From Chloroflexota bacterium (lineage in GTDB: Bacteria > Chloroflexota > Dehalococcoidia > Bin125): DNA of 64,000 nt. This document shows, one piece after another, positions 36,776 through 54,154 of this stretch. The notes under the pieces were generated by a model. It made no database searches. It was not told where the DNA came from and was given only the letters and a program-made list of their open reading frames with translations. The translations under genes and the position numbers were made by a program. The stretch lies in NCBI GenBank assembly GCA_009838735.1, contig VXQZ01000037.1, forward strand, positions 165,370 through 229,369. Reading direction: 5' to 3'. Positions within the stretch are counted from its first letter, which is position 1. Each line of letters starts with the position of its first letter.

Positions 36776-38419
36776 TCACCCGAGGAAACGCAGCGGCTGA
36801 CGCAGGTAACGAATCGGCGAAACAGTTCGCAGTTCGGTACGTCGAGGTCCGAAAAGTGGGCCGGACTGTACGAAATCGAGAACCGGCGTGCGCTCCTTGG
36901 TAACGCCGTCCGATGGCATGGGGATCGTGTATGTCAGTATCGCGTCTCGGTCCTCGACCTCGATCGACTCGACGAAGTTGCGAATCAGCGCCTTGCGCTC
37001 GGGAATGCTGCCCTCAGCGAGGAACTCGCGGAAGTCGGCGACGTATTCGCCAATCTCCGCCGTGGTCGGCAGGTCGGCCCTGCGCTGCTGCAACTGACGC
37101 GCCGCATCTTCCTGCGCTGCTGCGAGTTGGTCCTCGCGCTGGCGCAGCTTGAGGATTCGCGGCGACAGCGCCTGCATCGTGAGCTCGGTCGTCTCCAGCG
37201 CCTCATAGAGTCGGTCGAGCCGACTGCGGACATCAGCCAGTTCGGCCTCGACCGCGTGTAGCTGGCCACCGAGTTCGCCGGCCAATGAGTCGATCTCCTC
37301 GGCGACCAGCACGACCAACTCCGTGATGGTCTGATCGTTGAGAATCCGCCCGCGAATGGTGTCGACGATGGAAGACTCCACCCGCTCCGCGTTCAGGTAG
37401 CGGGCGGTGCAGGACCCCGAACCCTCCCGCAGCAGGGTGCCGCAGACGTAGTAGGAGAACTTGCCGCTCTTCGCCCCCTGACCGGTGTAGGGCTTGCCGC
37501 AGACCCCGCAGCGCAGCAGACCGCTGAGCAGGAACTTGCTGCCGACGCGCGCAGGTTGCCGCTTCTTCGGCGCGCGCTCCTCCAGACCATTCTGGACCGC
37601 GTCGAACATCTCACGTGAGACCAGGGCCTCCCAAGCGCCTTCCGCTCGCACAGGTTCCGGCTCCTTGTCGCCGGTGGTGGTTCGTCCCCATACCGCCGTC
37701 CCCGTATACGCCTCGTTGGTCAGGACGTAGTGGAGTCCGGTGCGTTGCCAGCGCTTGCCCTTGTTGGTGACGCCGCGTTGGTTGAGATCGGCCGCGATTT
37801 CCTTCAAGCCGAGTCCGCGTAGCGACTTCTCGAAGATCTCCTTGACGATCGGACCGGTGTCCAGATCGACTTCCAATGTCGGCCGCTCCTTGGCGCCATC
37901 CTGGACCTTGATTCGTCGGTAGCCGAACGGTGCCTTCGAGCTCAGAAAGAACCCACGCGAGGCGGCTTCCCGCATTCCTCGAGTCACCTCCTGGGCGAGA
38001 TTCTCTGAGTAGAACTCGTCCACGCTCTCGATGATCGCCTCCATCAGCTTGCCGGTCGGCGTGTCGTCGGCGTGCTCGGTGATCGAGGTGACGCGGATCC
38101 CGCGCCGGCGCAGCATTGACTTGAAGGCGACCGCATGCTCGCGCTTCCGCGTGAAGCGCGAGAACTTCCAGACCAGAATTTCTTGGAAGGGCGCGTCAGG
38201 CAGTGCCGCTTCGTCCAACATCTTGCGAAACTGGGGCCGGTCGGCGACACGCCCACTTTCTGCCTCATCGATGTACTCGCGCACGACGAGGTAGCCGTTG
38301 CGCTCGGCGTAGTCGCGCAGGGCGCGGAGCTGCGCTGCCACCGAGAGATCGACATCCTGGCGGTCCGACGAGACGCGGGCGTAGAGCGCAGCGGGCGTGA
38401 TGTTGAGTGAGTCTTGCAT
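36776..38419 (-). CDS. Large serine recombinase / site-specific integrase
   Basis: Resolvase N-terminus AALYARVSSDRQDVDLSVAAQLRALRDYAERNGY; recombinase domain; Zn ribbon LLSGLLRCGVCGKPYTGQGAKSGKFSYYVCGTLLREGSGSCTARYL; coiled coil. Start set at MQDSLNITPAALYARVSS (38419). Confidence 0.93.
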   Translation of the reverse strand: MQDSLNITPAALYARVSSDRQDVDLSVAAQLRALRDYAERNGYLVVREYIDEAESGRVADRPQFRKMLDEAALPDAPFQEILVWKFSRFTRKREHAVAFKSMLRRRGIRVTSITEHADDTPTGKLMEAIIESVDEFYSENLAQEVTRGMREAASRGFFLSSKAPFGYRRIKVQDGAKERPTLEVDLDTGPIVKEIFEKSLRGLGLKEIAADLNQRGVTNKGKRWQRTGLHYVLTNEAYTGTAVWGRTTTGDKEPEPVRAEGAWEALVSREMFDAVQNGLEERAPKKRQPARVGSKFLLSGLLRCGVCGKPYTGQGAKSGKFSYYVCGTLLREGSGSCTARYLNAERVESSIVDTIRGRILNDQTITELVVLVAEEIDSLAGELGGQLHAVEAELADVRSRLDRLYEALETTELTMQALSPRILKLRQREDQLAAAQEDAARQLQQRRADLPTTAEIGEYVADFREFLAEGSIPERKALIRNFVESIEVEDRDAILTYTIPMPSDGVTKERTPVLDFVQSGPLFGPRRTELRTVSPIRYLRQPLRFLG

Positions 38420-38764
38420 TTGGGATTCCGTTCTCGAGTAAGTTCCCGTGGCGCCGTCATCTTCATGGGCGAGTTGGTTGGCCCGCAGACGGATTGGAAA
38501 ACGGCATTCCTTGTTCGAAACACCATATCCGATTCGAACTGATATAGGTTCACACGTGAACCACTGAAGCAGCGCTCTCCAGCTTTGCACCGGCGAGCCG
38601 CCCGTGGCTTCCGACATGCCAAATCGACTCGAAGCAGCCTGCAGCAGCACTGCCGGCGCATGGCCACAGGTGCTAGACGCCTACGGCATCTGCGAGGCCC
38701 GCCTGACGGCGTGCAAGATCAGGCTGCTCGGACGGCGACTCGGTCACACCGTTGAAGAGTCCGA

Positions 38765-40150
38765 CTATCTCTTGACCACCACCCGCAGTCGTCTCGCTAT
38801 CGCCTCTCGGTCCTTGATCAACTTAAGAGCGGAGACCGTGCTGCCCGTTACAACCGCCACGAAGTGAAAGATCAACAGCAGTTCGCACTGGTAAGTGAGG
38901 CGGATGAGTTCTGCACCTCTCGGGACGTCGTGGTCCTCAAGCGGAATGTGGTGGACGACGACGTTCCTCGTACGTGCCACCTTTCGACCAAACTCCTCGC
39001 TGGATTCTTCAAGCCCGAGATACTCAGCGAACGGTTCAGTCAACCTTTGGATTCGCTTGCGAAGCTTCCTCTTCGATCCGCCATTCAAGGCCTTGTCGAG
39101 GGTCTCGAGGGCCTCGGTCAGCTGCCGGAACTTCTCGTCGACGGTGGATGTTCTGCTGGAATCAGCCGCCGAGAAGTAAAGACGAAACGGCTGATAGTGC
39201 GCGGAGTACATATCGAACCATCGCGCGAGGCATACATGCAGATCGTCGTTCAGATCGCTCCGCTGAAACATCATCAGCGCACCTAGGAGATTGCGCTCCG
39301 CTTCTCCCTGATCTCGTTCCTCATAGATGATCTCTATCTCGCTTTCGCGCTCTCCGCCCCCCGGAGCTGGTTCGGTCACACCGCGTGAGTACCCGGTCAG
39401 GCCACTCACTGCAACGCTCTGATCCGTCGCAAGCCGGAGGAAGTCTCTGAACCACATGACCCGCCTGGTCGCCTCGTCGGCGGTCCAGAGATCGGCGGCC
39501 GACAGTTCCACGTATGCAAGCTGCGAGACTTGAGCCTCTTTCGTCTCTTTCCATGCTGACGGAATCGAAAAGCCGAACCCTATCTTGCCGCTCTCACGGT
39601 GCTGGAGTTCTGGAAGCGCTATGGCCTGGGGTGCTCGGAATGAGATTGTCGCGTGGCCTCCTCGTGCATCACCGTCAACACGAATGCCGGACATCGCCAG
39701 CCATTCATCGAGTCCTTCGACTGTGAAAGTGACGCGAGAAAAGCCAATGATCTCCTCTGGCTCGGACAGGAGCCCGGCAAACAGCCATGTCGCGCGATAT
39801 GTGCCGCCAACAAATGAGGCGCCTCTCGTCCTCGATTGCAATTTATTCTCTGTACGAAGGCAGCCATCGAGAGTCACGTAGCCGTGGTCCTTTGTGACTC
39901 CGAGGATTCGACGGGTGCTATGCGCATCGCTAGCGATGAAGGCAGAGGCGAGCGAGCGTGGCTCGTCGCCCATCAAACCGAAGGTCTCTAGCACGACAGC
40001 ACCTGACGGCGCTACCCTGAGAACTCCAGGCACTCGATGGTCCGCCTGCGCGTCTTCGGGGAGCCAGAAGAAGCCGTAGTCTTCCATCTCTTCTACGCGC
40101 ATCGGGTGCTGCCATTTCATCTGCTCGAATGGGTTAGCCGGATAACTCAA
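38765..40150 (-). CDS. apeA: ApeA-like anti-phage HEPN-domain protein
   Basis: N-terminal ApeA_NTD-like pattern (YGFFWLPEDAQADHRVPGVLRVAPSGAVVLETFG...) and C-terminal HEPN motif RNVVVH (Rx4H) in GRKVARTRNVVVHHIPLEDH. Confidence 0.7.
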   Translation of the reverse strand: MSYPANPFEQMKWQHPMRVEEMEDYGFFWLPEDAQADHRVPGVLRVAPSGAVVLETFGLMGDEPRSLASAFIASDAHSTRRILGVTKDHGYVTLDGCLRTENKLQSRTRGASFVGGTYRATWLFAGLLSEPEEIIGFSRVTFTVEGLDEWLAMSGIRVDGDARGGHATISFRAPQAIALPELQHRESGKIGFGFSIPSAWKETKEAQVSQLAYVELSAADLWTADEATRRVMWFRDFLRLATDQSVAVSGLTGYSRGVTEPAPGGGERESEIEIIYEERDQGEAERNLLGALMMFQRSDLNDDLHVCLARWFDMYSAHYQPFRLYFSAADSSRTSTVDEKFRQLTEALETLDKALNGGSKRKLRKRIQRLTEPFAEYLGLEESSEEFGRKVARTRNVVVHHIPLEDHDVPRGAELIRLTYQCELLLIFHFVAVVTGSTVSALKLIKDREAIARRLRVVVKR

Positions 40151-41425: not shown

Positions 41426-42514
41426 TCAAGAGGATCGAGTCTGCACTTTGGCTGCATCAGCGGGAATCGTCGGCTGCGTCAATGCGAGCCCGCGCCAGAC
41501 CAGAGGTTGCCGTGTCTTGCAGTCAACCACGCCTTGCAGATTGGGTGGATTATTGGGGTTGGCCCTTGCCGTGTCCAACTGAGCCTGGGTCAACCCGCAT
41601 GCTGGATGTTCTCCGTCTCCGGAGAAGTCAACGCCCGACACGTCAGTTCCGGTCAGATTCGCATCAGAGAATACAGATCCCTTGACCCGTGACGACGTGA
41701 GACTTGCATCGTGCAAATCTGCTTCCGAAAAGTCGGTATCCATCAACGTGGCGCCGACGATCGTCGCTCTGGCAAGGTTCGCATTCGAAAAGTTGGCCTT
41801 AAAGGAATAGATTCCCGACAAATCAGCATCGATAAGGAGTACCGTCTGGAAATTGCTAAAGCTGAACCTAGCCCTTCTGAGAACTACATCGTCCAGTTCC
41901 ACTAGACCATACTCATGCCGAAACACCGCCTTGTTTTGCAAGGCCTTCGCAGGTATTCGACTATCGGGTTCATTGCGTCGACCTATCGAGTCGACCGCAG
42001 CCTGGATATCATCACGCAGCCACGCTGACGAGCCTGCTCCCAAATGGTGTGTCGGGTACCGTATGAAAGTGGTCAACAGCCTGATCACGTCAGGGCGATA
42101 TCTCTCTGAATCGTCTTCGACGAGCCTATCAAGTGCGTGTATGCCGCCTAGTCTGGTAGAAACAGTTGAACTGCCGAGCATCTGAGCGGCCTGTTGGAAG
42201 CGCTCGTCGAGAAGTCTCCGTTGCGACACCTCTGTCTGGCGAAGCGCGGTATCTACCTGCTGTCGGGCTGCGTGGGCTTGTTGATTGGCCGAATGGGCCC
42301 GCCAACTCGCCACGCCGATGGCGATCACTCCGCCAATCAGAATCCCTGCAGTGGCGACACGCTCCATTCGGTCTGGCCATGAAGAGGCGAACTCCATCCC
42401 ATCGCGATGGATCGGTGCTGCGATATCTGAAGGCCACCAACCCACCGTATAACTGATCGCAGAGACCAGTCCGACTCCAGTGACGGCGAGGAGAACCGGC
42501 ACTCCCTTACTCAC
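41426..42514 (-). CDS. Pentapeptide-repeat protein with N-terminal membrane segments
   Basis: Two hydrophobic segments, then A[DN]LxxAxF pentapeptides (LIDADLSGIYSFKANFSNANLARATIVGATLMDTDFSEADLHDAS); start overlaps the upstream RM gene stop by 8 bp. Confidence 0.8.
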   Translation of the reverse strand: MSKGVPVLLAVTGVGLVSAISYTVGWWPSDIAAPIHRDGMEFASSWPDRMERVATAGILIGGVIAIGVASWRAHSANQQAHAARQQVDTALRQTEVSQRRLLDERFQQAAQMLGSSTVSTRLGGIHALDRLVEDDSERYRPDVIRLLTTFIRYPTHHLGAGSSAWLRDDIQAAVDSIGRRNEPDSRIPAKALQNKAVFRHEYGLVELDDVVLRRARFSFSNFQTVLLIDADLSGIYSFKANFSNANLARATIVGATLMDTDFSEADLHDASLTSSRVKGSVFSDANLTGTDVSGVDFSGDGEHPACGLTQAQLDTARANPNNPPNLQGVVDCKTRQPLVWRGLALTQPTIPADAAKVQTRSS

Positions 42515-45500
42515 GTGAAGCCTCCTGTACCCCTAGAAGAACCGCCACCCGCCGCGCAACCTCCGAAAACCAGCCGACCTCCGACACCTCCAGTCCCCGA
42601 TCCAGCACCTTCGACTCCCGGTAGCTCAGCCACTTCTTGAGGACCTGGTAGCCGCCGAGGCGGTAGCTCCAGACTTCGATGGGTATGTCCCGCCAATACG
42701 CGTTGTCGTTGAGGTAGACGTCGACCAAGTCTCCTCGTCGCTCGATCTTCCCCTGGCCGGGCATGACGGCTTTATTGGCTCCAAAGTGGCCCCAGCCGGC
42801 GGTGAGGTGGAAGTCGGCGGGTTGCATGGGGAGGCCGTCGACCGTGGTGGGGACGGCGATGTGGGTGTTGTCGGCGAGGAGGTCGGCGACGTCAGACTCG
42901 GTGTCGAGCAGGCGTGCGAGGCGGTGGCCTCGGGCGGCGGATTGGGCGAGCTCGGCAGGGTCGTCGGGCAGGGGGATGCGGGGCCAGCCCATGCGCAGTC
43001 CGCCGGCATTAGCCTCGCGGTAGGCGGGGTCGTGCAGCGTGGCGAGGACATGGTGGAAGAGATCCTCGGGCGTAGCGTCCATGGACTCGATAGAGGCCCG
43101 CGCCCGCTCACTCAGATTGGCGGTCCGTTTGACGCCGTCCACCTCCTCGCCGAACTGGTCGTCTCGGAGGTAGAGGGGGATGCACGTGGCGCCTCGGTCG
43201 AACAGATCGAGGCATCCGATAGGAGAGATCACTTGTGCCGGCGACCATTCGCGACGGGGCTTCTGTTGAGACACAATCGCCATGTTGCCGGCGAACACGT
43301 GCGGCTGATACTCCGGGCGCGGGCGATCTAACAGGCTTGACGTAGAGGACCAGTAGAGCCAGCGGACATCGAACGGACGGTAGGCGAAGCGGACGAAATC
43401 GGAATCGGTTGTCTCGACATGGTTACCGACTTGCTCCTTGAGCTGCTCCAAGTCGAGGCCAACGACAAGTGAATCGCGGCTCGTTTTCACGCCTGGGTAG
43501 TAGGCGGGAAAGAGACTTACCAAGGTCGGCCAATCGAACCAGTTCTCGCTCACCGCAATCGGAGCGAATGGCAACCCCAGCCCCTTCATCGGTCTCAGGT
43601 GGCGGTACTGCTCGGACGGATCGGGGTTAGCGTCTTCGTCTAGTTCACGGAGCTTGCCTGTCCCCCACAGTTCCCGCCAATCAACCCGCTCCGGAGACTT
43701 ATGCTTCTCTTTCCGCACCAACGTCGCAATCGCCGTACCGACCTGGATGCCGACCGGATCGTCCTTGGTTGAGAACACGCTCGGATCGGAGTCCCCTTCG
43801 GGCGTGAGCTTACCGGTGCGGTACTTGTCTCCGTTGAGGTTGTCGATGCGGATGATGTCGAAGGCGTCGAGGTAGCGCTGTCTCATGCCGGGGAAGGAGA
43901 GGCCGTCGAGCCAGGAGTAGTTGCTGATGAAGCAGACGATGCCCTTGCCGGTCTTCTCGGCGATCCGGCGCTCGGCCATGCGGAAGAAGCGCACGTAGAG
44001 GTCGTTGAGTCCCTGGCCCTGCGGCTTGGGCACGTCGGGTCCGGAGACTGGTTGTTTAACGGTGCGGTAGGCGTCCGACAGCGCCCGCTCCTCCGGCACG
44101 TCGGGCACGCCGGGGAAGCCGTTGTATGGCGGGTTGCCGAGCACGACCAGGATCGGACGCTGCTGCTTGACCTGGTTGGCGCTGCGGCGCTCCTGTTCCA
44201 GCTCGGGGAAGGGCAGCGGCTTGGTCGTGTGCGGTTCCCAGCCGGTCAGGGCGTTGGTCAGGAAGACGCCGGCGCGCTGGTTGGGCGAGAGTCCCGCGCC
44301 CAGGCGCTCCAGCGCGAGTCCGATTTCGAGGTGCGAGACGACCAACGGGGCGGGCATGATCTCGAAGCCGAAGACGCGGGTCGCAGCGGCCTGGCGGACC
44401 GACTCGGCCCAGGTCGCGCCGCCTGATGCTTGCTCGGTCTCGGCGATCCGCCGCAGCGTCTCGACCAGGAAGGCGCCCGTGCCGCAGCAAGGATCGAGCA
44501 CATAGACGCGTTCGTCGGCCAGTCCCTTGGCAATGCCGAGGTCGTCGCGCAGCGCCCGGTCGACGCGCGCCACCATGTAGCGCACGATCTCGCGCGGCGT
44601 GTACCAGACGCCTAGCGATTTGCGCAGTTCGGGGTCGAACGCCTCAAGGAACGGCTCGTAGAAATACTGCACCGCCTCGCCCTCGCTGAAGCTCTTGAGG
44701 AACGCCTCGCGGTCGACCCGTTCCAGCGCCGCCTCGACCCAGTCGAGCACCTCGTCCAGTCCCAGCCGCTCCAGCCGGCCTGGATCCGTGATTTGATGGA
44801 AGAGCATGCGCAGCACCGGCGCACGCAGTTCGTAGACCGTGTCTTTCCAGCCGAAGCGTCCCGGCTTCCCGGCCCGCGCCCAGAGCACCCAGGCGGCGAA
44901 GACGCCGTAGAACAGCGTCTGCACCAGCGTCGAACGGAAGAACCGGCCGCCGTCCTCGCTCTCGAAGGACATGCCCAGGGCCTGCTCGATCGCCTCGCGG
45001 ATCGTGGCCAGCGAATCCTCTTCCTCGGCCGCCTGCTCGACCCGCTGCAGCGCGTCGCGGGCGTATGAGGCGAGCAGCCGGGCGAGGTCGCGGGGCTCGG
45101 AGATGGTCGAGCGGTGCGACATCACGCGCAGCAGGTACTCGCCCAGCGAGACCCCGTGCCGGTTGGCGGCGCGCGTGGTGTGTTGGAGCAGTTCGTCGAA
45201 ACCGGCGACGGAGTCTGCGAGCGAATAGCGCTCCAGGGTCGCCATTGCGCCGCCGTTGTCCTGTCCAACCAGCGCGAACTCGCGCAGGTTGGTCACGAGG
45301 ACGAGCTTGCGGGCCTGCCAATACTGTTCGACCTGCTCGGAGGCGATCAACGCATCGAGGTCGGCGTCGGCGCCCTTGACCTCGACTACGCCGCGATCCG
45401 GGTCGGTGCTCTCGCCGGAGAAGAACCCGAGGTCGGGCTGGCCGGGATTGGTCTCGCTGTAGTGAACGACGGCGCGGACCTTCGGCGTCAGTTCGTCGCC

Positions 45501-45617
45501 GACGGCGTCGAAGAGGTTGTCAAGCGCGGTGTAGTGCGAGAGCTCCGGTGTCCCGACGCGGCTGACGGCCGAGATCGCGTCGAGGTACTGCTTGACAGCT
45601 TGGCGGATGTCACTCAC
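42507..45617 (-). CDS. Single-chain restriction-modification protein: N-terminal PD-(D/E)XK-like nuclease plus N6-adenine methylase plus specificity region (type ISP/IIG-like)
   Basis: PDLGFF...GVVEVKG nuclease-like motif; SAM motif VLDPCCGTGAFLVETLRRI; catalytic NPPY in VVLGNPPYNGFPGV. Confidence 0.85.
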   Translation of the reverse strand: MSDIRQAVKQYLDAISAVSRVGTPELSHYTALDNLFDAVGDELTPKVRAVVHYSETNPGQPDLGFFSGESTDPDRGVVEVKGADADLDALIASEQVEQYWQARKLVLVTNLREFALVGQDNGGAMATLERYSLADSVAGFDELLQHTTRAANRHGVSLGEYLLRVMSHRSTISEPRDLARLLASYARDALQRVEQAAEEEDSLATIREAIEQALGMSFESEDGGRFFRSTLVQTLFYGVFAAWVLWARAGKPGRFGWKDTVYELRAPVLRMLFHQITDPGRLERLGLDEVLDWVEAALERVDREAFLKSFSEGEAVQYFYEPFLEAFDPELRKSLGVWYTPREIVRYMVARVDRALRDDLGIAKGLADERVYVLDPCCGTGAFLVETLRRIAETEQASGGATWAESVRQAAATRVFGFEIMPAPLVVSHLEIGLALERLGAGLSPNQRAGVFLTNALTGWEPHTTKPLPFPELEQERRSANQVKQQRPILVVLGNPPYNGFPGVPDVPEERALSDAYRTVKQPVSGPDVPKPQGQGLNDLYVRFFRMAERRIAEKTGKGIVCFISNYSWLDGLSFPGMRQRYLDAFDIIRIDNLNGDKYRTGKLTPEGDSDPSVFSTKDDPVGIQVGTAIATLVRKEKHKSPERVDWRELWGTGKLRELDEDANPDPSEQYRHLRPMKGLGLPFAPIAVSENWFDWPTLVSLFPAYYPGVKTSRDSLVVGLDLEQLKEQVGNHVETTDSDFVRFAYRPFDVRWLYWSSTSSLLDRPRPEYQPHVFAGNMAIVSQQKPRREWSPAQVISPIGCLDLFDRGATCIPLYLRDDQFGEEVDGVKRTANLSERARASIESMDATPEDLFHHVLATLHDPAYREANAGGLRMGWPRIPLPDDPAELAQSAARGHRLARLLDTESDVADLLADNTHIAVPTTVDGLPMQPADFHLTAGWGHFGANKAVMPGQGKIERRGDLVDVYLNDNAYWRDIPIEVWSYRLGGYQVLKKWLSYRESKVLDRGLEVSEVGWFSEVARRVAVLLGVQEASRE

Positions 45618-46037: not shown

Positions 46038-46400
46038 GTGCCGACCGTACGCTACTTCGAGGATGCAGACGGTTCGATTCCGGTCTTCGACTACATCGAC
46101 TCCTTGGATCAGGCGGGACGCGGCGCAGAGGCGGCGGGCATGCTCTCGGACATCGACCTGTTGGCGGCGATCGGCATGCCGGGCGCGCAGCAGAGGGGCT
46201 GGTCGTTCAGCCGACTCATCGATCCCGAACTCAGGATCTGGGAATTGCGGCCCGGCAACCATCGGATCGCATACGCCGCCATTGCGGGCGACCTCGTGCT
46301 TCTGCACGCCTGGCGGAAGCAGACGCAGAAACTCGATGCTAGGGCGTTGCGGCGCGCCCAACGCAACTACTGGCGCGCCGTGGACCGGATCGGCCAGTGA
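46038..46400 (+). CDS. RelE/HigB-type (Gp49-like) toxin
   Basis: VPTVRYFEDADGSIPVFDYIDSLDQAG...SFSRLIDPELRIWELRPGNHRIAYAAIAGDLVLLHAWRKQTQKLDARALRRAQRNY; likely GTG start. Confidence 0.8.
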   Translation: MPTVRYFEDADGSIPVFDYIDSLDQAGRGAEAAGMLSDIDLLAAIGMPGAQQRGWSFSRLIDPELRIWELRPGNHRIAYAAIAGDLVLLHAWRKQTQKLDARALRRAQRNYWRAVDRIGQ

Positions 46401-46419
46401 CTCCCCTCCGCGCGAAAGG

Positions 46420-47487
46420 ATGACGACCATGGCAACTCCGGCCGGACCCACCCACGAAGAGATGCGCGATCGCTTGCTCCAGAAAGGCAGCTCAGAGCTA
46501 CGAGAGGAATACGCCCGCCTCGGACCGCGACGAGACGCCATCGTCGCGTTGTTCCGCGCACGCCAACTGCGCAAGTTGACACAGTACGAACTCGCTCAGC
46601 GGGCGGGCGTCAGCCAGGGAGTGATCAGCCGACTTGAGAGCGGCGGACACAGTCCCAAACTAGAGACGCTTGAACGAATCGCCAGAGCGATGGACTTCCG
46701 CCTAGAGCTCAAGTTAGTGGACGACCGCGAGCGCGGCGCCGCCGCGAGCGGCACGGTCGCCGGGCGTCGACGCGAACGACCGGCGGCTGAGATGGTGGAT
46801 ACTCAGCCGACCGACGGACAGTCGAGTCGTGAGACGCGGTTGGCGGAGACCACTGCAGCCGGGTACGAACTCTTGAGGCAAACAGCAGATGCCTATCGAG
46901 ACCAGGGCTATGAGGTCTCAATTGAAGAGGAGCTCGATTTTCTGCCCGGGTTCCGAGCCGACCTGTTGGCGCGCAAGGGCGATCAGGTACGGGTGATCGA
47001 AATCAAACCTCGCTCCATTGTGGTCAACTCAGGCGCGCTGGACCAACTGGCGCGAGCGATTAAGGAGCAACCGGGCTGGAGTCTCGACGTGGTGCTGGGG
47101 GCCGAAACGGAGCAGCAGGAGCCGCCGCGCGCGGTGGACCCGTTCATTCGCGAGCATGTGCAGCGCCGGCTCGATGAAGCCGAGCAGGTGCTTGACGAAG
47201 GGCACCCCGAGTCGGCCTTTCTGCTGGCCTGTTTGGCGTTCGAAGCGAGGATCGGACGGCCATTTGACGACCGCGGCCGATTGCGTGAGCGATTCGCGGA
47301 ATTCGCCCGGATGTCGGAACCGGCGGCGATTCGGGGCATGTTCTCGGCGGAGGAGCGGGAAAGACTGATCCGTCTCTGGGAACTGCGAAATGCGATCGTC
47401 CACGGCTACCACGCGCCTGAGTTCAACGAGGCTTCGGTCAGGGAACTGATCGATGTTGTTCGAGAACTTGGTACTGCTGCCGCCTGA
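46420..47487 (+). CDS. XRE-HTH + PD-(D/E)XK nuclease-like + HEPN-like fusion (candidate multi-domain antitoxin/effector)
   Basis: HTH FRARQLRKLTQYELAQRAGVSQGVISRLESGGHSPKLETLERIARAM; nuclease-like FLPGFRADLLARKGDQVRVIEIKPRS; HEPN-like RLWELRNAIVHGY (Rx4H). Immediately downstream of the toxin. Confidence 0.75.
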   Translation: MTTMATPAGPTHEEMRDRLLQKGSSELREEYARLGPRRDAIVALFRARQLRKLTQYELAQRAGVSQGVISRLESGGHSPKLETLERIARAMDFRLELKLVDDRERGAAASGTVAGRRRERPAAEMVDTQPTDGQSSRETRLAETTAAGYELLRQTADAYRDQGYEVSIEEELDFLPGFRADLLARKGDQVRVIEIKPRSIVVNSGALDQLARAIKEQPGWSLDVVLGAETEQQEPPRAVDPFIREHVQRRLDEAEQVLDEGHPESAFLLACLAFEARIGRPFDDRGRLRERFAEFARMSEPAAIRGMFSAEERERLIRLWELRNAIVHGYHAPEFNEASVRELIDVVRELGTAAA

Positions 47488-47849: not shown

Positions 47850-49763
47850 CTACTCCACTAACTCCATCTCCTTCAGAAAGCGCGACGGAGCCCTTTTCCA
47901 TCCGAACACCTCCCGCGAGTAGGTCAGCGTGAGACTGCTTTCGGCACGTGTTATCGCCACAAAACAGTTGCGCCGCTCTTCCTGGATTTCCTGGCTTGCC
48001 GGCCCCTTCTTTACGGCCCAATAGCTAGGTAGCTGATCTTCAACCAGACCAACCAGGTACACGTGCTGAAACTCCGCCCCCTTGGCCCCGTGAATGGTGT
48101 AACAGGGAACAGCCTCTTTTGGGGGCCTAGGCGTCTTCGCGCGAAGATCCAGCCCTTGCAATAGCACGTTCAGCGTGACTTGATCCCTACCAACCTCACC
48201 GGCAACCTCTGCCACCAGCTCGTGCCAGGTGTCAAGTTCCTCACTGAACTCATCTTCATCGTTGTCTGGCGGTCCCACATCTGGCAACGCGTCAAACCAC
48301 TTCAGAGCCATCTGAATGAAGCTCCAAAAGTCCAATTGCTCGGAGATCATCGGGATGCCGTTTGTCAAGAGCTCCCTCGTAGCCGGGTCCAATCCGGGGT
48401 TGTTAGACGCAACGCGTCGCCAAGCACGAAGGTAGTCAGCATCAGCAGCTGCAGCGTCGGCCACGATGTCCCGAACTTGCAGATTAGCGCCCGCCAACTC
48501 AAAGAACGACTTGCAAATCCGACGAAGTTGCTCCCTGTCCTGTCTAGAGTTCGCCAATCTGAGGATAGAGTGCAACCAAATCAGCTGTTGGCTTGTAAAC
48601 TCATCCTTTCGCATGGCTATGTAAGCAGGAATCTCTTCGGTCGCCAGAGCCTCAAGGATTGGTTCTAGTAGTCTCCGAGTGCGAGCAAGCACTACGCAGT
48701 TGCGGCGTTCCTGAACAGATCGGCCTGCCAGATCCGCTGCGACCCACGCCGCCTCGTCCTCAAAGCTGTGGAAGTCCTCCACTCTAATGACGTTGTCTGC
48801 CTCCTCCACTTTGTGAGCGACCAGCATCGACTTTTCGAAGATCCGAGTTACGTTGCCGCGTATGAGCTTGTTGGCAACGTCCACGACCTGAGCAGGGCAG
48901 CGGTAGTTCTCTGGCAGCTGAAGTACGGTGACGCCGAAGTCGTCTCTCAGAGAGAGCAGTCGCTTTGGGTCCGCGCCATTCCATTGATAGATCATCTGAT
49001 CATCGTCGGCGACCACGAACAGGTTTCTCGTCGTGGGGTCAACGACGTTCACAAGCACGCGATACTGTGCCAGATTGGTGTCCTGAAACTCGTCGACACA
49101 AACATACGGGTAGATGCGATTAATCAGGCGGCGGATAGCTGCATTGCCTTCCATTAGGGCAATAGCCTCGGCGATCAGCGAGCCAAAGTCCAACTGGTTG
49201 TTTTCCACCATTAGTCGCCGGAAGGAAGAATAGACAGCCGCCAATGCCTCCGCATCTCCTAGATTGCGATGGCGAAGATCCTGTAGAGCACGATCCGGAG
49301 CCACACAATCGTCCAATAGGCGGTTGATCATCGGCAACAGTTGTTCTCCTCGGAGGGCGAAATCGGGAAACTGCTTGCCCGCATCCTGGATGGCCTCATC
49401 AAGTACGGACTCTCTATCCACGGTTTGGGACAAGATGGTGAAGTTGGGCTCTAGCCCTATGTGGTGTCCGTGCTGTCGCAGAATGTCCACACAGAAAGAA
49501 TGAAAGGTCGTTAGCCGTATCCGGTCTCCCGCGTTGGGTACAAGCTGCTCGATTCGCTCTCGCATCTCTGCCGCCGCCTTGTTGGTAAACGTGAGCCCGA
49601 GAAGTCGGAAAAACCTGTTTGGGTTCTCCTCCACTATCCTGGCAATGCGGTATGTGAGCACCCTCGTTTTGCCGGAACCTGGACCAGCCAGCACCAGAAG
49701 AGGACCGTCGCCCCAGTTCGCTGCTTCGAACTGGCTGGCATTCAATGAGGACAGGTCAACCAT
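47850..49763 (-). CDS. gajB: Gabija GajB-like UvrD/Rep-family helicase
   Basis: Walker A LVLAGPGSGKTRVLTYRIARIV, VDEFQDTNLAQYRVL, QLPENYRC, TIHGAKGAEFQHVYLVGL; 8-bp overlap with the upstream OLD nuclease. Confidence 0.88.
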   Translation of the reverse strand: MVDLSSLNASQFEAANWGDGPLLVLAGPGSGKTRVLTYRIARIVEENPNRFFRLLGLTFTNKAAAEMRERIEQLVPNAGDRIRLTTFHSFCVDILRQHGHHIGLEPNFTILSQTVDRESVLDEAIQDAGKQFPDFALRGEQLLPMINRLLDDCVAPDRALQDLRHRNLGDAEALAAVYSSFRRLMVENNQLDFGSLIAEAIALMEGNAAIRRLINRIYPYVCVDEFQDTNLAQYRVLVNVVDPTTRNLFVVADDDQMIYQWNGADPKRLLSLRDDFGVTVLQLPENYRCPAQVVDVANKLIRGNVTRIFEKSMLVAHKVEEADNVIRVEDFHSFEDEAAWVAADLAGRSVQERRNCVVLARTRRLLEPILEALATEEIPAYIAMRKDEFTSQQLIWLHSILRLANSRQDREQLRRICKSFFELAGANLQVRDIVADAAAADADYLRAWRRVASNNPGLDPATRELLTNGIPMISEQLDFWSFIQMALKWFDALPDVGPPDNDEDEFSEELDTWHELVAEVAGEVGRDQVTLNVLLQGLDLRAKTPRPPKEAVPCYTIHGAKGAEFQHVYLVGLVEDQLPSYWAVKKGPASQEIQEERRNCFVAITRAESSLTLTYSREVFGWKRAPSRFLKEMELVE

Positions 49764-51504
49764 TTCTGGCCTCCTCCGCCAAGTGTATCGCGCAGTTTAG
49801 GATGTCAGCCAGTTGCGAGGGAACGCCCGTGACGCCATTTCGCCTGATCTCGTTGGCCACCTCAACGGCAGCGGGAATCTTTGCTTTGTTGGCTTGGGAT
49901 CTGGACACCTGCTCCCAGTACTCGAGAGATCCTTGTGACGCAGTTACATTGCTGGCCTTGTTCTGCGAGATGTAACTCTTGTACACATAGCCATACCCTT
50001 CCACACTCAAGAACACTTCCAAGGTGCCATGCTGTAGTTGGCTGATGTGTTGTGTAGCTTGCCTGCCTGCGAGTTGTTTCTCGGCGGCCTTGACGTAGTC
50101 ATCGCCTGCTTTGTCATTGTCTGCAACGAGATGCCATTCTATGCCCATCGAATCGGCAAACGTGGTCAGCGCCTCAACCCCGACGCCGATCTGTCTGTAC
50201 TCGATGAAACTCACGCCTTCGTATGCGAGATTGCGATTCATTGCCTCGGCGCATCCCTCTAGAATCAACCGATCCGCTTCACCCTCTACTAACAGCCAAC
50301 AGCGAGCAAACAATACGCTTCCTCGGTTTGAACGAATGTGGTAGTTCACCTTCCTCATCTCGTCCTCGTCGAGAATACCTGTTGTCAGATGGTGAACGGT
50401 GATTTCGCCATTCTTGCGCCGCAAACGTCGCAAGGATGTAATCGAACAGGCCCCAACGAGATCGCCTGAATGAGAGGTGAGTAGCTTCTGGCCGCTGAGG
50501 CCCTGCAGGAGAGTAGCCACTGAGTGGATTGCTGCAGGGTGCAAGTGGGCCTCAGGCTCCTCGAGGGCCAGTATCGGCGTCGTGTCGTCCCGGTAGGTGT
50601 CTGTCATCCTGCTCTGCAGGAAGGCGTCGAACAGACAAACGACCGCCAAGCTCTGAGTCCCTTCCCCATGTCTGCCGATAGGCAGGCGAGCGCCGGTGAC
50701 TGATGAGAGCATCACCTGCGTCCGTGACAGAATGTCGAACACTCTTGAGGGGATTGCCTCAATGCCCACCGGGTCATCAGTCGCCAAAGGCACAATCGTC
50801 TTCGTGTTGCTCAGTCGCTCCTCGATGGCACCGAATGATTCGTTTGCATCGAGAACCCTCTGGTTCAGATGAGCGAGCTCCTCTTCCAATTCTTGTCTGA
50901 CGTCGGGTTCCATCTTCGAGAATCGAACGAAGGGCCTCCAGAACTGCCCCCGTGGCGTAAACTCCTGCGCGGAGTCGCGGAGCGCAGACAGGTAGAAGAC
51001 TGGCACCAGTTGTCGCAGGGCGTCTAGCAAGGCAGGATTCCGTGCGCCAACCAATTCGTCGCCGGCAGGATTCAGGAAGGTCCAAGCCGTGACGAAGTCG
51101 CCCAGGAGATCGTCGAACTGGCTTCGGACTCTAAAAGTCACTGCCTGTTTGTCGTCCGCCGATACCTGTACCGCTTCTCCCAGTGCTTGGACGACTTCGT
51201 CTGGCCATTCGCCTTCCGACCGTTCGAGGAATCGGAGAGTGATCTCAATCCCATCGCTGTCAGAGGGTTGACTGTCCTTGGTTGGAAGGCGATAGTCATA
51301 TTCTGAGAATGCGCCTCCTCGCCTCCCGAGCCTTCGGCTCAAACAGACCTCAAGGGCCGCAAGAATCGTGGACTTTCCGGTGTTGTTTTCGCCGATCAAG
51401 ACCGTGGTTTCGTCCAGCTTCAACTCGAGCCGACGGATGCCTCTGAAGTTCTTTATCTCGATCTGGTCCAAGAACACTGCGTGAGTCCTCCCTTGGTCAC
51501 TCAT
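49756..51504 (-). CDS. gajA: Gabija GajA-like OLD-family ATP-dependent nuclease (ATPase + TOPRIM)
   Basis: FLDQIEIKNFRGIRRLELKLDETTVLIGENNTGKSTIL; LALEEPEAHLHP; TOPRIM LLVEGEADRLILEGCAEAM...WHLVADNDKAGDDY. Start set at MSDQGRTHAVFLDQ (51504). Confidence 0.88.
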   Translation of the reverse strand: MSDQGRTHAVFLDQIEIKNFRGIRRLELKLDETTVLIGENNTGKSTILAALEVCLSRRLGRRGGAFSEYDYRLPTKDSQPSDSDGIEITLRFLERSEGEWPDEVVQALGEAVQVSADDKQAVTFRVRSQFDDLLGDFVTAWTFLNPAGDELVGARNPALLDALRQLVPVFYLSALRDSAQEFTPRGQFWRPFVRFSKMEPDVRQELEEELAHLNQRVLDANESFGAIEERLSNTKTIVPLATDDPVGIEAIPSRVFDILSRTQVMLSSVTGARLPIGRHGEGTQSLAVVCLFDAFLQSRMTDTYRDDTTPILALEEPEAHLHPAAIHSVATLLQGLSGQKLLTSHSGDLVGACSITSLRRLRRKNGEITVHHLTTGILDEDEMRKVNYHIRSNRGSVLFARCWLLVEGEADRLILEGCAEAMNRNLAYEGVSFIEYRQIGVGVEALTTFADSMGIEWHLVADNDKAGDDYVKAAEKQLAGRQATQHISQLQHGTLEVFLSVEGYGYVYKSYISQNKASNVTASQGSLEYWEQVSRSQANKAKIPAAVEVANEIRRNGVTGVPSQLADILNCAIHLAEEARNG

Positions 51505-51568
51505 CGACCACTGTAGGTGGCGATCTGAATGCGGCAAAGGCACGGAGCACGACCTACCTGGGACCAGC

Positions 51569-51840
51569 TCACATGGAAGGCACCATGACTTCCACGACCG
51601 CAAGGTGGATCCCGTTGAAGTGAGAAATGTCGCGCCAGTCGTATCGGGCGGCGATCCATCGGAAGCCCTTGAGACGCTTGACGAAGCACTCAACCTCGAT
51701 GCGACACAGTCACGACGGACATCGTAGGTCCGAAGTGGGTGCCGATTGGATGTGCGCAAATCGAGCGAGAGGTTGCCGAGCGATCACGGAGGCTCCGAAG
51801 TCGGTCGCCTTCGTCGGCACCACTCACGAGCAGAGCTGAG
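51569..51840 (-). pseudogene. IS5-family transposase remnant
   Basis: Minus-frame fragment CRIEVECFVKRLKGFRWIAARYDWRDISHFNGIHLAVVEVM* resembles the IS5 C-terminal R-IE-xF-xxLK-xFRRIATRYD motif; upstream pieces only in other frames. Confidence 0.55.
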
Positions 51841-52908: not shown

Positions 52909-53365
52909 GGGTTCAGCCTACCCAATCTCTGGGTGTCCGATATCTCTACTTTGGCCTACTGACAAGGGGCCTGGCTAATCCATTGCTCGGACGACACGCT
53001 GTCCTCACACTCACGGGCAAGACCCGGCTGGCCGATACAAGACTCCGACGACTGCCAACTGTTCTCAACGAGCTAGCCGCTCTTCTTCCTCTGCAGCTGG
53101 CTACATCCGCGCGCGGACCGTCAGCGGGCCGGCTCGCCGTTAGCCCAAACCGCCCAATCCGCTGTCCAGCCCTGAGCCAACCTTCGCTCATAGCCGACAT
53201 GCAGGAGTGGCCTGGCTATGTTTTCCTGTGTGGTGAACGATGTATTGGATACCATCGGCCAACGGTTCTGATCGCGCGAGAAACACCAGGCCCAGTGACT
53301 GCCAGCGCATCACCTTTCGGCCTGTTGTCCAGGAGCAAGAGCCCCCCAAATCGAATACCGTACAC

Positions 53366-54154
53366 ATGAGCAACACACAGTCGGGGCGGTTGATGTCCGT
53401 TCGCGTCTCGGGATTCGCCAAGGGCCTGGTCCGCTGCCTCGATTTCGAGTCGGTCTCGGTCGAGGAGCTAGATCGCGTGCTCGTGGACGTCGCCGAGACG
53501 CTGGAGATGGACTACATCGACCCATCGGCTGACTCCCCATTCATCCGCTCCGGTGCGCCTTTCGCGGACCTCGTCTTCGTCCAGCACGGCACGGCCGTGC
53601 CCTGGCAATCCCCGCACTCCGAACTCGCGGCACCGTTCCTGATCGGCGTGCACGAGTTCCTGATGGATGCGGAGCGCTGGGTGGCCAGCTACTCCGCAAT
53701 CACCGAAGCGGTCGTGGTGAGGATTCCGAAGGTTGTGATGGGGCGGGTCGTGGACGAGCTGCCGTCCGTGCGCGAGCGGATGCACGAACTGGTGATGCGC
53801 CGGCTGGCTCGCTACTACTGGATCTCCCTTGCGACCAGCGGCGCGCCCGGCTCTCGGGTAGCGGCGGCGCTGGTCTCCCGGCTGGCGCTGGATGACCGGG
53901 ACTACGGCGCCGATCGCCGGATCGCGGTGCGCCAGACGGACATCGCGCGGCTGACGACGATGTCGCGCTCGGGGGTGTCGGTCGGCCTGGCCGAGCTGGC
54001 CAGGGAGCAGGTGGTCGAGTGGGGCGACCGGCCGGGGGCGCGGTTCCGAGGCGAGGTGCTGGTCCCGGACGTGGATCTGCTCAAGGACTACGCCTTCCTC
54101 GACATGCGTACGCGCGAGATCCGCCCGCTTCTGACCGGTGAAGGCGGCGAGTGA
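53366..54154 (+). CDS. Crp/Fnr-like transcriptional regulator
   Basis: cNMP-binding-like N-terminus, C-terminal winged HTH VRQTDIARLTTMSRSGVSVGLAELAREQVVEW. Confidence 0.6.
   Translation: MSNTQSGRLMSVRVSGFAKGLVRCLDFESVSVEELDRVLVDVAETLEMDYIDPSADSPFIRSGAPFADLVFVQHGTAVPWQSPHSELAAPFLIGVHEFLMDAERWVASYSAITEAVVVRIPKVVMGRVVDELPSVRERMHELVMRRLARYYWISLATSGAPGSRVAAALVSRLALDDRDYGADRRIAVRQTDIARLTTMSRSGVSVGLAELAREQVVEWGDRPGARFRGEVLVPDVDLLKDYAFLDMRTREIRPLLTGEGGE

Follow-up and report, generated by a model that had tools for sequence, protein, structure and literature searches.

The window (the whole 64,000-nucleotide stretch of DNA that was analysed), from a Chloroflexota bacterium, carries a HigBA toxin–antitoxin locus in which, as read from its sequence, the antitoxin gene runs in frame, end to end, into a captured whole gene for a predicted two-domain nuclease. 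The gene fusion is real and well formed, its domains were correctly recognised in the original prediction, and it represents a modified HigBA, not a novel type of system. It looks like a fusion caught soon after forming. Partner swapping and domain fusion are the presumed routes by which toxin–antitoxin (TA) modules evolve, but intermediates with both unfused parents at one site are rarely seen; here, two parents and their product share a single cargo slot within one element family, which makes the effect of fusion on each activity directly testable.

A toxin gene at 46038-46400 and a 355 aa partner at 46420-47487 had been predicted, and both are confirmed, on the same strand, toxin first, with a gap of 19 nt between them. 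L022 and L021 below are loci of two congeners that carry the unfused parts.

46038-46400, plus strand: HigB toxin, GTG start, 120 aa, RelE/BECR fold (Gp49/PF05973)
46420-47487, plus strand: HigA-AHJR-HEPN fusion protein, ATG start, frame open across three domains
46420-46806, plus strand: HigA antitoxin part, residues 1-129 (~130), 72% identical to the complete 129 aa HigA of L022
46555-46704, plus strand: XRE/HTH_3 DNA-binding motif, residues 46-95 (Pfam HTH_3, 53.9 bits, 1.9e-14)
46792-46842, plus strand: fusion junction, from DNA alignments against L022 (ending at 46772) and L021 (starting at 46841)
46849-47172, plus strand: AHJR-like (archaeal Holliday-junction-resolvase-like) PD-(D/E)XK nuclease domain, residues 144-251, with D181, E194 and K196 (PF18743)
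47140-47487, plus strand: HEPN domain, residues ~241-354, with E275 and R323-N324-x3-H328, the motif R323NAIVH328 intact

The HigB toxin and HigA antitoxin

The toxin, originally called HigB/RelE-like, matches Gp49/PF05973 (30 bits above cut-off in Pfam), and its best and only significant PDB match in phmmer is Streptococcus pneumoniae HigB (6AF3, E 9.7e-11). In the alignment R71, R76 and K94 fall on the 6AF3 active-site residues R68, R73 and K92, whilst the pneumococcal F90 is W92 in the window toxin, an exchange of F for W. The antitoxin part has N-terminal helices (the presumed toxin contact), a strand at residues 94-101 and, between them, the helix-turn-helix (HTH) that had been read as XRE antitoxin-like, a reading which the HTH_3 match and the identity to the HigA of L022 bear out. 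This same L022 HigA matches pneumococcal HigA (6AF3_B, E 1.3e-6). That toxin and antitoxin are each best matched to pneumococcal HigBA among solved structures supports the type II HigB-HigA reading. A RosmerTA/ImmA-type antitoxin was considered and rejected: RmrA models match the HTH part only (residues ~44-104), with no protease domain in Pfam.

Nuclease and HEPN domains of the extension

The long extension of the antitoxin was predicted to hold a nuclease-like signature, 'ADLLARKGDQVRVIEIK', and a C-terminal HEPN domain ending in RNAIVH. For the former, the AHJR-like REase profile PF18743 scores 57.7 bits against a cut-off of 26.1 in Pfam. For the latter, the HepT-like profile falls below its cut-off on the fusion protein itself (residues 305-332, 13.8 bits against 23.5) and matches 9 of 10 homologues, the best at 3.3e-5. 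These 10 AHJR-HEPN homologues, the window protein included, come from Chloroflexota and Alphaproteobacteria and were aligned over their length: the D of the PD-(D/E)XK motif never varies, nine members retain the ExK glutamate, and the E of the second HEPN helix is invariant together with all fixed positions of R-N-x-x-x-H-G. HEPN domains are defined in PMC3710099, where the definition is given, by an Rx4-6H motif, a polar residue after the R and an acidic residue in helix 2, and the fusion protein has R323, H328, N324 and E275 at these places.

Structure supports the same assignments. The profile of the AHJR-HEPN family matches archaeal Hjc (2eo0, E 8.6e-4), and both a PD-(D/E)XK core and a HEPN fold, for which the original prediction had proposed a check, were predicted on the stand-alone L021 homologue (67% identical) in a model of moderate confidence (mean pLDDT 62.7). 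In the fold search this model matched a HEPN protein (2hsb, prob 1.00, TMt 0.69, E 8e-3), HepT (7bxo, prob 1.00) and Hjc resolvase (4tkk, prob 1.00), with E-values of 0.008-0.1, as well as the HEPN/MNT-type folds 6m6w and 7ae9. The full-length AlphaFold model of the fusion is of low confidence (mean pLDDT 49.8), and the best PDB matches of this poor model include a HEPN protein and one 6AF3 toxin–antitoxin chain. AlphaFold inputs were alignments of two or three rows, giving low to moderate confidence; the HEPN part is predicted as a five-helix bundle. An Agrobacterium homologue is independently annotated by NCBI as a HepT-like ribonuclease domain protein. The profiles, the conservation in homologues and the fold matches together indicate that 'ADLLARKGDQVRVIEIK' and RNAIVH are real active-site motifs, not chance.

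Both parents occur unfused in congeners

In one congener, G002 (L022, Chloroflexota MAG RHO3_bin_68), the order is a Type ISP restriction–modification (RM) gene on the minus strand, HigB and HigA, where HigA stops at 129 aa; this HigB is 80% identical to that of the window and the HigA is 72% identical to fusion residues 2-128. In the other, G004 (L021, MAG SB0664_bin_15), a Type ISP RM gene, again on the minus strand, is followed by RusA and a stand-alone AHJR-HEPN gene of 215 aa, which overlaps the RusA gene by one base and is 67% identical to fusion residues 141-355. More distant pairs of HigB with an HTH antitoxin are found in L004, L011 and L013.

The join itself is sharply bounded. Similarity to HigA fades past residue ~127 and DNA similarity to L022 ends at 46772, whilst DNA similarity to L021 starts at 46841, one base inside a TTG codon (46840) that in the alignment stands where the separate AHJR-HEPN gene has its ATG start; an ATG at 46792, in frame at the junction, is a possible internal start. 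These boundaries imply that a complete HigA was joined to a complete AHJR-HEPN via a short new linker. HigA relatives lack the extension, which begins at the start codon of an independent gene, and a plain long HigA family was rejected on these grounds.

The original prediction had named, as grounds against itself, a fusion never found with the toxin in other genomes, and within the search this is the case: samples of 393 genomes of the class and 400 of the phylum, together with plasmids, phages and viral contigs, gave no second copy, so that an established triple-fusion family was likewise rejected, and the fusion is known from a single example in a single metagenome-type draft assembly. Since AHJR is itself rare (PF18743 occurs in 8 of the 400 phylum genomes), the absence of further fusions is weak evidence on age. 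Elsewhere the parts are found apart, HigB-HigA with no cargo and AHJR-HEPN beside RusA; the fusion looks like two independent modules joined recently, not like an established effector–antitoxin class.

A variable cargo slot in a mobile element

The locus lies within an integrative/conjugative-type element, which also encodes a pentapeptide-repeat gene, a replication-relaxation protein and TrwB- and TraG-like ATPases.

36776-64000: integrative/conjugative-type element, with serine recombinase, ApeA-like, RM and TraG/TrwB-like ATPase genes
36776-38650: large serine recombinase
38765-40150: ApeA-like HEPN gene
42507-45617: Type ISP RM
47850-51759, minus strand: Gabija pair, directly 3' of the fusion gene
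53240-54154: Crp-type regulator

In the Gabija pair, GajB is a UvrD helicase (PADLOC 1.4e-258) and GajA an OLD-like ATPase/TOPRIM protein (1.1e-211). The element backbone is syntenic with that of G004 (G004:C38), at protein identities of 92% for TraG, 91% for TrwB and 90% each for the relaxation protein and the Crp-type regulator. Flanked by the Crp-type and RM genes, the slot holds cargo that varies between congeners: Gabija and HigB/HigA-AHJR-HEPN in the window, a PIN-domain gene and RusA/AHJR-HEPN in G004. In G002, HigBA adjoins the same Type ISP RM gene, and given these arrangements both parents of the fusion are known cargo beside this RM gene.

AHJR genes elsewhere follow RusA

RusA stands directly 5' of AHJR, on the same strand, in all 16 other assessable loci, across two phyla. 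Those counted in Chloroflexota are L021, L041, L045, L046, L048, L049, L050, L051, L110 and the decayed pair L042, and those on alphaproteobacterial plasmids L038, L039, L040, L068, L069 and L070; L047, which is cut by a contig end, was left out. The genes of a pair overlap or nearly so, for example:

L021, 5369-6669: RusA and AHJR(-HEPN) pair
L038, 4510-5609: RusA and AHJR(-HEPN) pair
L039, 4501-5600: RusA and AHJR(-HEPN) pair
L068, 2558-3654: RusA and AHJR(-HEPN) pair
L045, 6060-6736: AHJR without HEPN, ~100 aa, overlapping the upstream RusA
L110, 1474-2198: AHJR without HEPN, ~100 aa, overlapping the upstream RusA

The stand-alone AHJR genes are mostly preceded by GGAGG-like ribosome-binding sites. 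As L045 and L110 lack HEPN and the L050 protein has a different C-terminus, the partner of RusA is probably AHJR itself, with RusA-AHJR the core and HEPN a frequent addition. Housekeeping genes are frequent neighbours and defence genes occasional ones, for instance the AbiE-type and restriction genes of L038, as would suit a self-contained cassette. Decayed relatives were also seen: a broken RusA/AHJR-HEPN pair in G011 (L042:5109-6106), and, in G011 and G004, HEPN-like remnants whose motif has lost its arginine (LCSAIVHG; L043:5687-6148, L044:5069-5530).

No RusA match was found in the window genome (G000), and a RusA remnant at the fusion junction was looked for and rejected. In other genomes AHJR-HEPN follows RusA as the second gene of a conserved operon; with RusA absent here, HigA seems to have taken its place upstream of the nuclease. 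The RusA and AHJR pairs tested have no PADLOC model, and the literature search returned no paper with both RusA and HEPN, none for AHJR with HEPN and none for RusA with HepT. It is conceivable, though doubtful, that RusA and AHJR-HEPN form an undescribed self-contained TA-like or defence module in which RusA licenses or restrains the HEPN RNase, a role that HigA took over by fusion. If so, one protein would be the antitoxin to one RNase (HigB) and the carrier of a second (HEPN).

Proposed function and alternative explanations

The reading that we favour, at about an even chance, is that this element cargo is a HigB-HigA addiction module whose antitoxin gene is fused to an AHJR-HEPN nuclease gene, the product acting as a functional antitoxin and repressor with a second nuclease attached. 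The first ~100 residues most likely still neutralise HigB through the N-terminal helices, the HTH would repress the operon and the fusion would dimerise through strand 94-101. Pneumococcal HigA grips HigB with its helices 1-2 and N-terminal strand and dimerises via its C-terminal strand (PMC7984235), which makes a C-terminal fusion sterically plausible; as the cargo begins ~40 residues past strand 94-101, it should leave dimerisation and the binding of toxin and DNA intact. Placed on a linker of that length, the nuclease would be a dimerised cargo or second effector, with HigA dimerisation able to pair the HEPN domains. The original prediction had suggested that the antitoxin could itself be a second effector, released on sensing toxin or DNA. 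HEPN RNases generally act as dimers, a state that a HigA dimer would favour. At rest the fusion would serve as antitoxin and repressor, until branched or foreign DNA engaging AHJR, or degradation of the fusion, allowed the HEPN RNase, the freed HigB or both to stop growth. An operator palindrome common to the window and L022 upstream of HigB was not found.

Pairwise pN/pS is 0.30 for the toxin, 0.32 for HigA, 0.27 for AHJR and 0.46 for HEPN, which shows that every part has been under purifying selection along the branches compared, weakest on HEPN. Because this highest value coincides with a stretch at residues ~276-292 that diverges from all homologues, HEPN may be decaying, and both observations would suit a neutral or transient joining in which the protein serves as HigA alone and its tail is a passenger decaying since RusA was lost. 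Such a passenger would also fit a fusion seen in only one of the genomes searched, the loss here of the RusA present in every other assessable locus, and the decayed copies of the same gene in relatives (G011:C11, G011:C18, G004:C30). However, both nuclease domains retain every predicted catalytic residue, the 215-codon frame is open and the pN/pS of AHJR is the lowest measured, and on balance we regard a mere passenger as unlikely.

Two further explanations concern whether the fusion is what it seems. A single draft assembly, with both unfused versions at the same slot in congeners, is a setting where assemblers can switch variants, and the gene could be a chimera, or a rare variant, joining two versions of one cargo slot from a mixed population; yet the join is in frame and at natural gene boundaries, leaves both domains whole and has no apparent sequence common to the parents, and the protein sequences of the two halves differ by 28-35% from those of their known unfused counterparts, making this improbable. 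Internal initiation at ATG 46792 or TTG 46840 might instead give a free AHJR-HEPN beside the fusion, so that the locus still yields three proteins. In-frame start codons do lie at the junction, and TTG 46840 is a remnant of the nuclease start codon, but neither is preceded by a good ribosome-binding site of the kind that most stand-alone genes have, and we would be surprised if two products were made. A HigBA module with an antitoxin that carries a nuclease remains our preferred account.

Comparison with known systems

The AHJR-HEPN pair was already known: Anantharaman et al. 2013 list HEPN-M/DUF86 as occasionally fused to an archaeal Holliday junction resolvase-like REase (PMC3710099, Table 1), the same two-domain architecture with the conserved Rx4H. 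The main text of that paper mentions neither a fusion to an antitoxin HTH nor a linkage to RusA, and as far as the literature was searched both are undescribed; our comparison reveals a RusA and AHJR(-HEPN) gene pair common to Chloroflexota and Alphaproteobacteria. HepT/MntA (HEPN-MNT) modules are alike in placing a HEPN RNase second, behind a potentially controlling partner, and in fold (7bxo, 6m6w, 7ae9), but no MNT is present here, and the family's usual partner, RusA, gives way to HigA within a single chain. Multidomain HTH antitoxins such as RosmerTA (RmrA) likewise have an XRE-type HTH with a long C-terminal extension, which in the window is a nuclease, not an ImmA-type protease. The archaeal Holliday junction resolvase Hjc shares the fold and PD-(D/E)XK core, whereas AHJR is partnered with RusA or HigA and has HEPN appended. 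Also close is the type II HigBA of S. pneumoniae (6AF3/6AF4; PMC7984235). In both, the toxin gene comes first, HigB has the same fold and active-site residues, and HigA combines its HTH with helices at the N-terminus and a strand at the C-terminus; the window antitoxin differs in its 225 extra residues, which hold two predicted nuclease domains.
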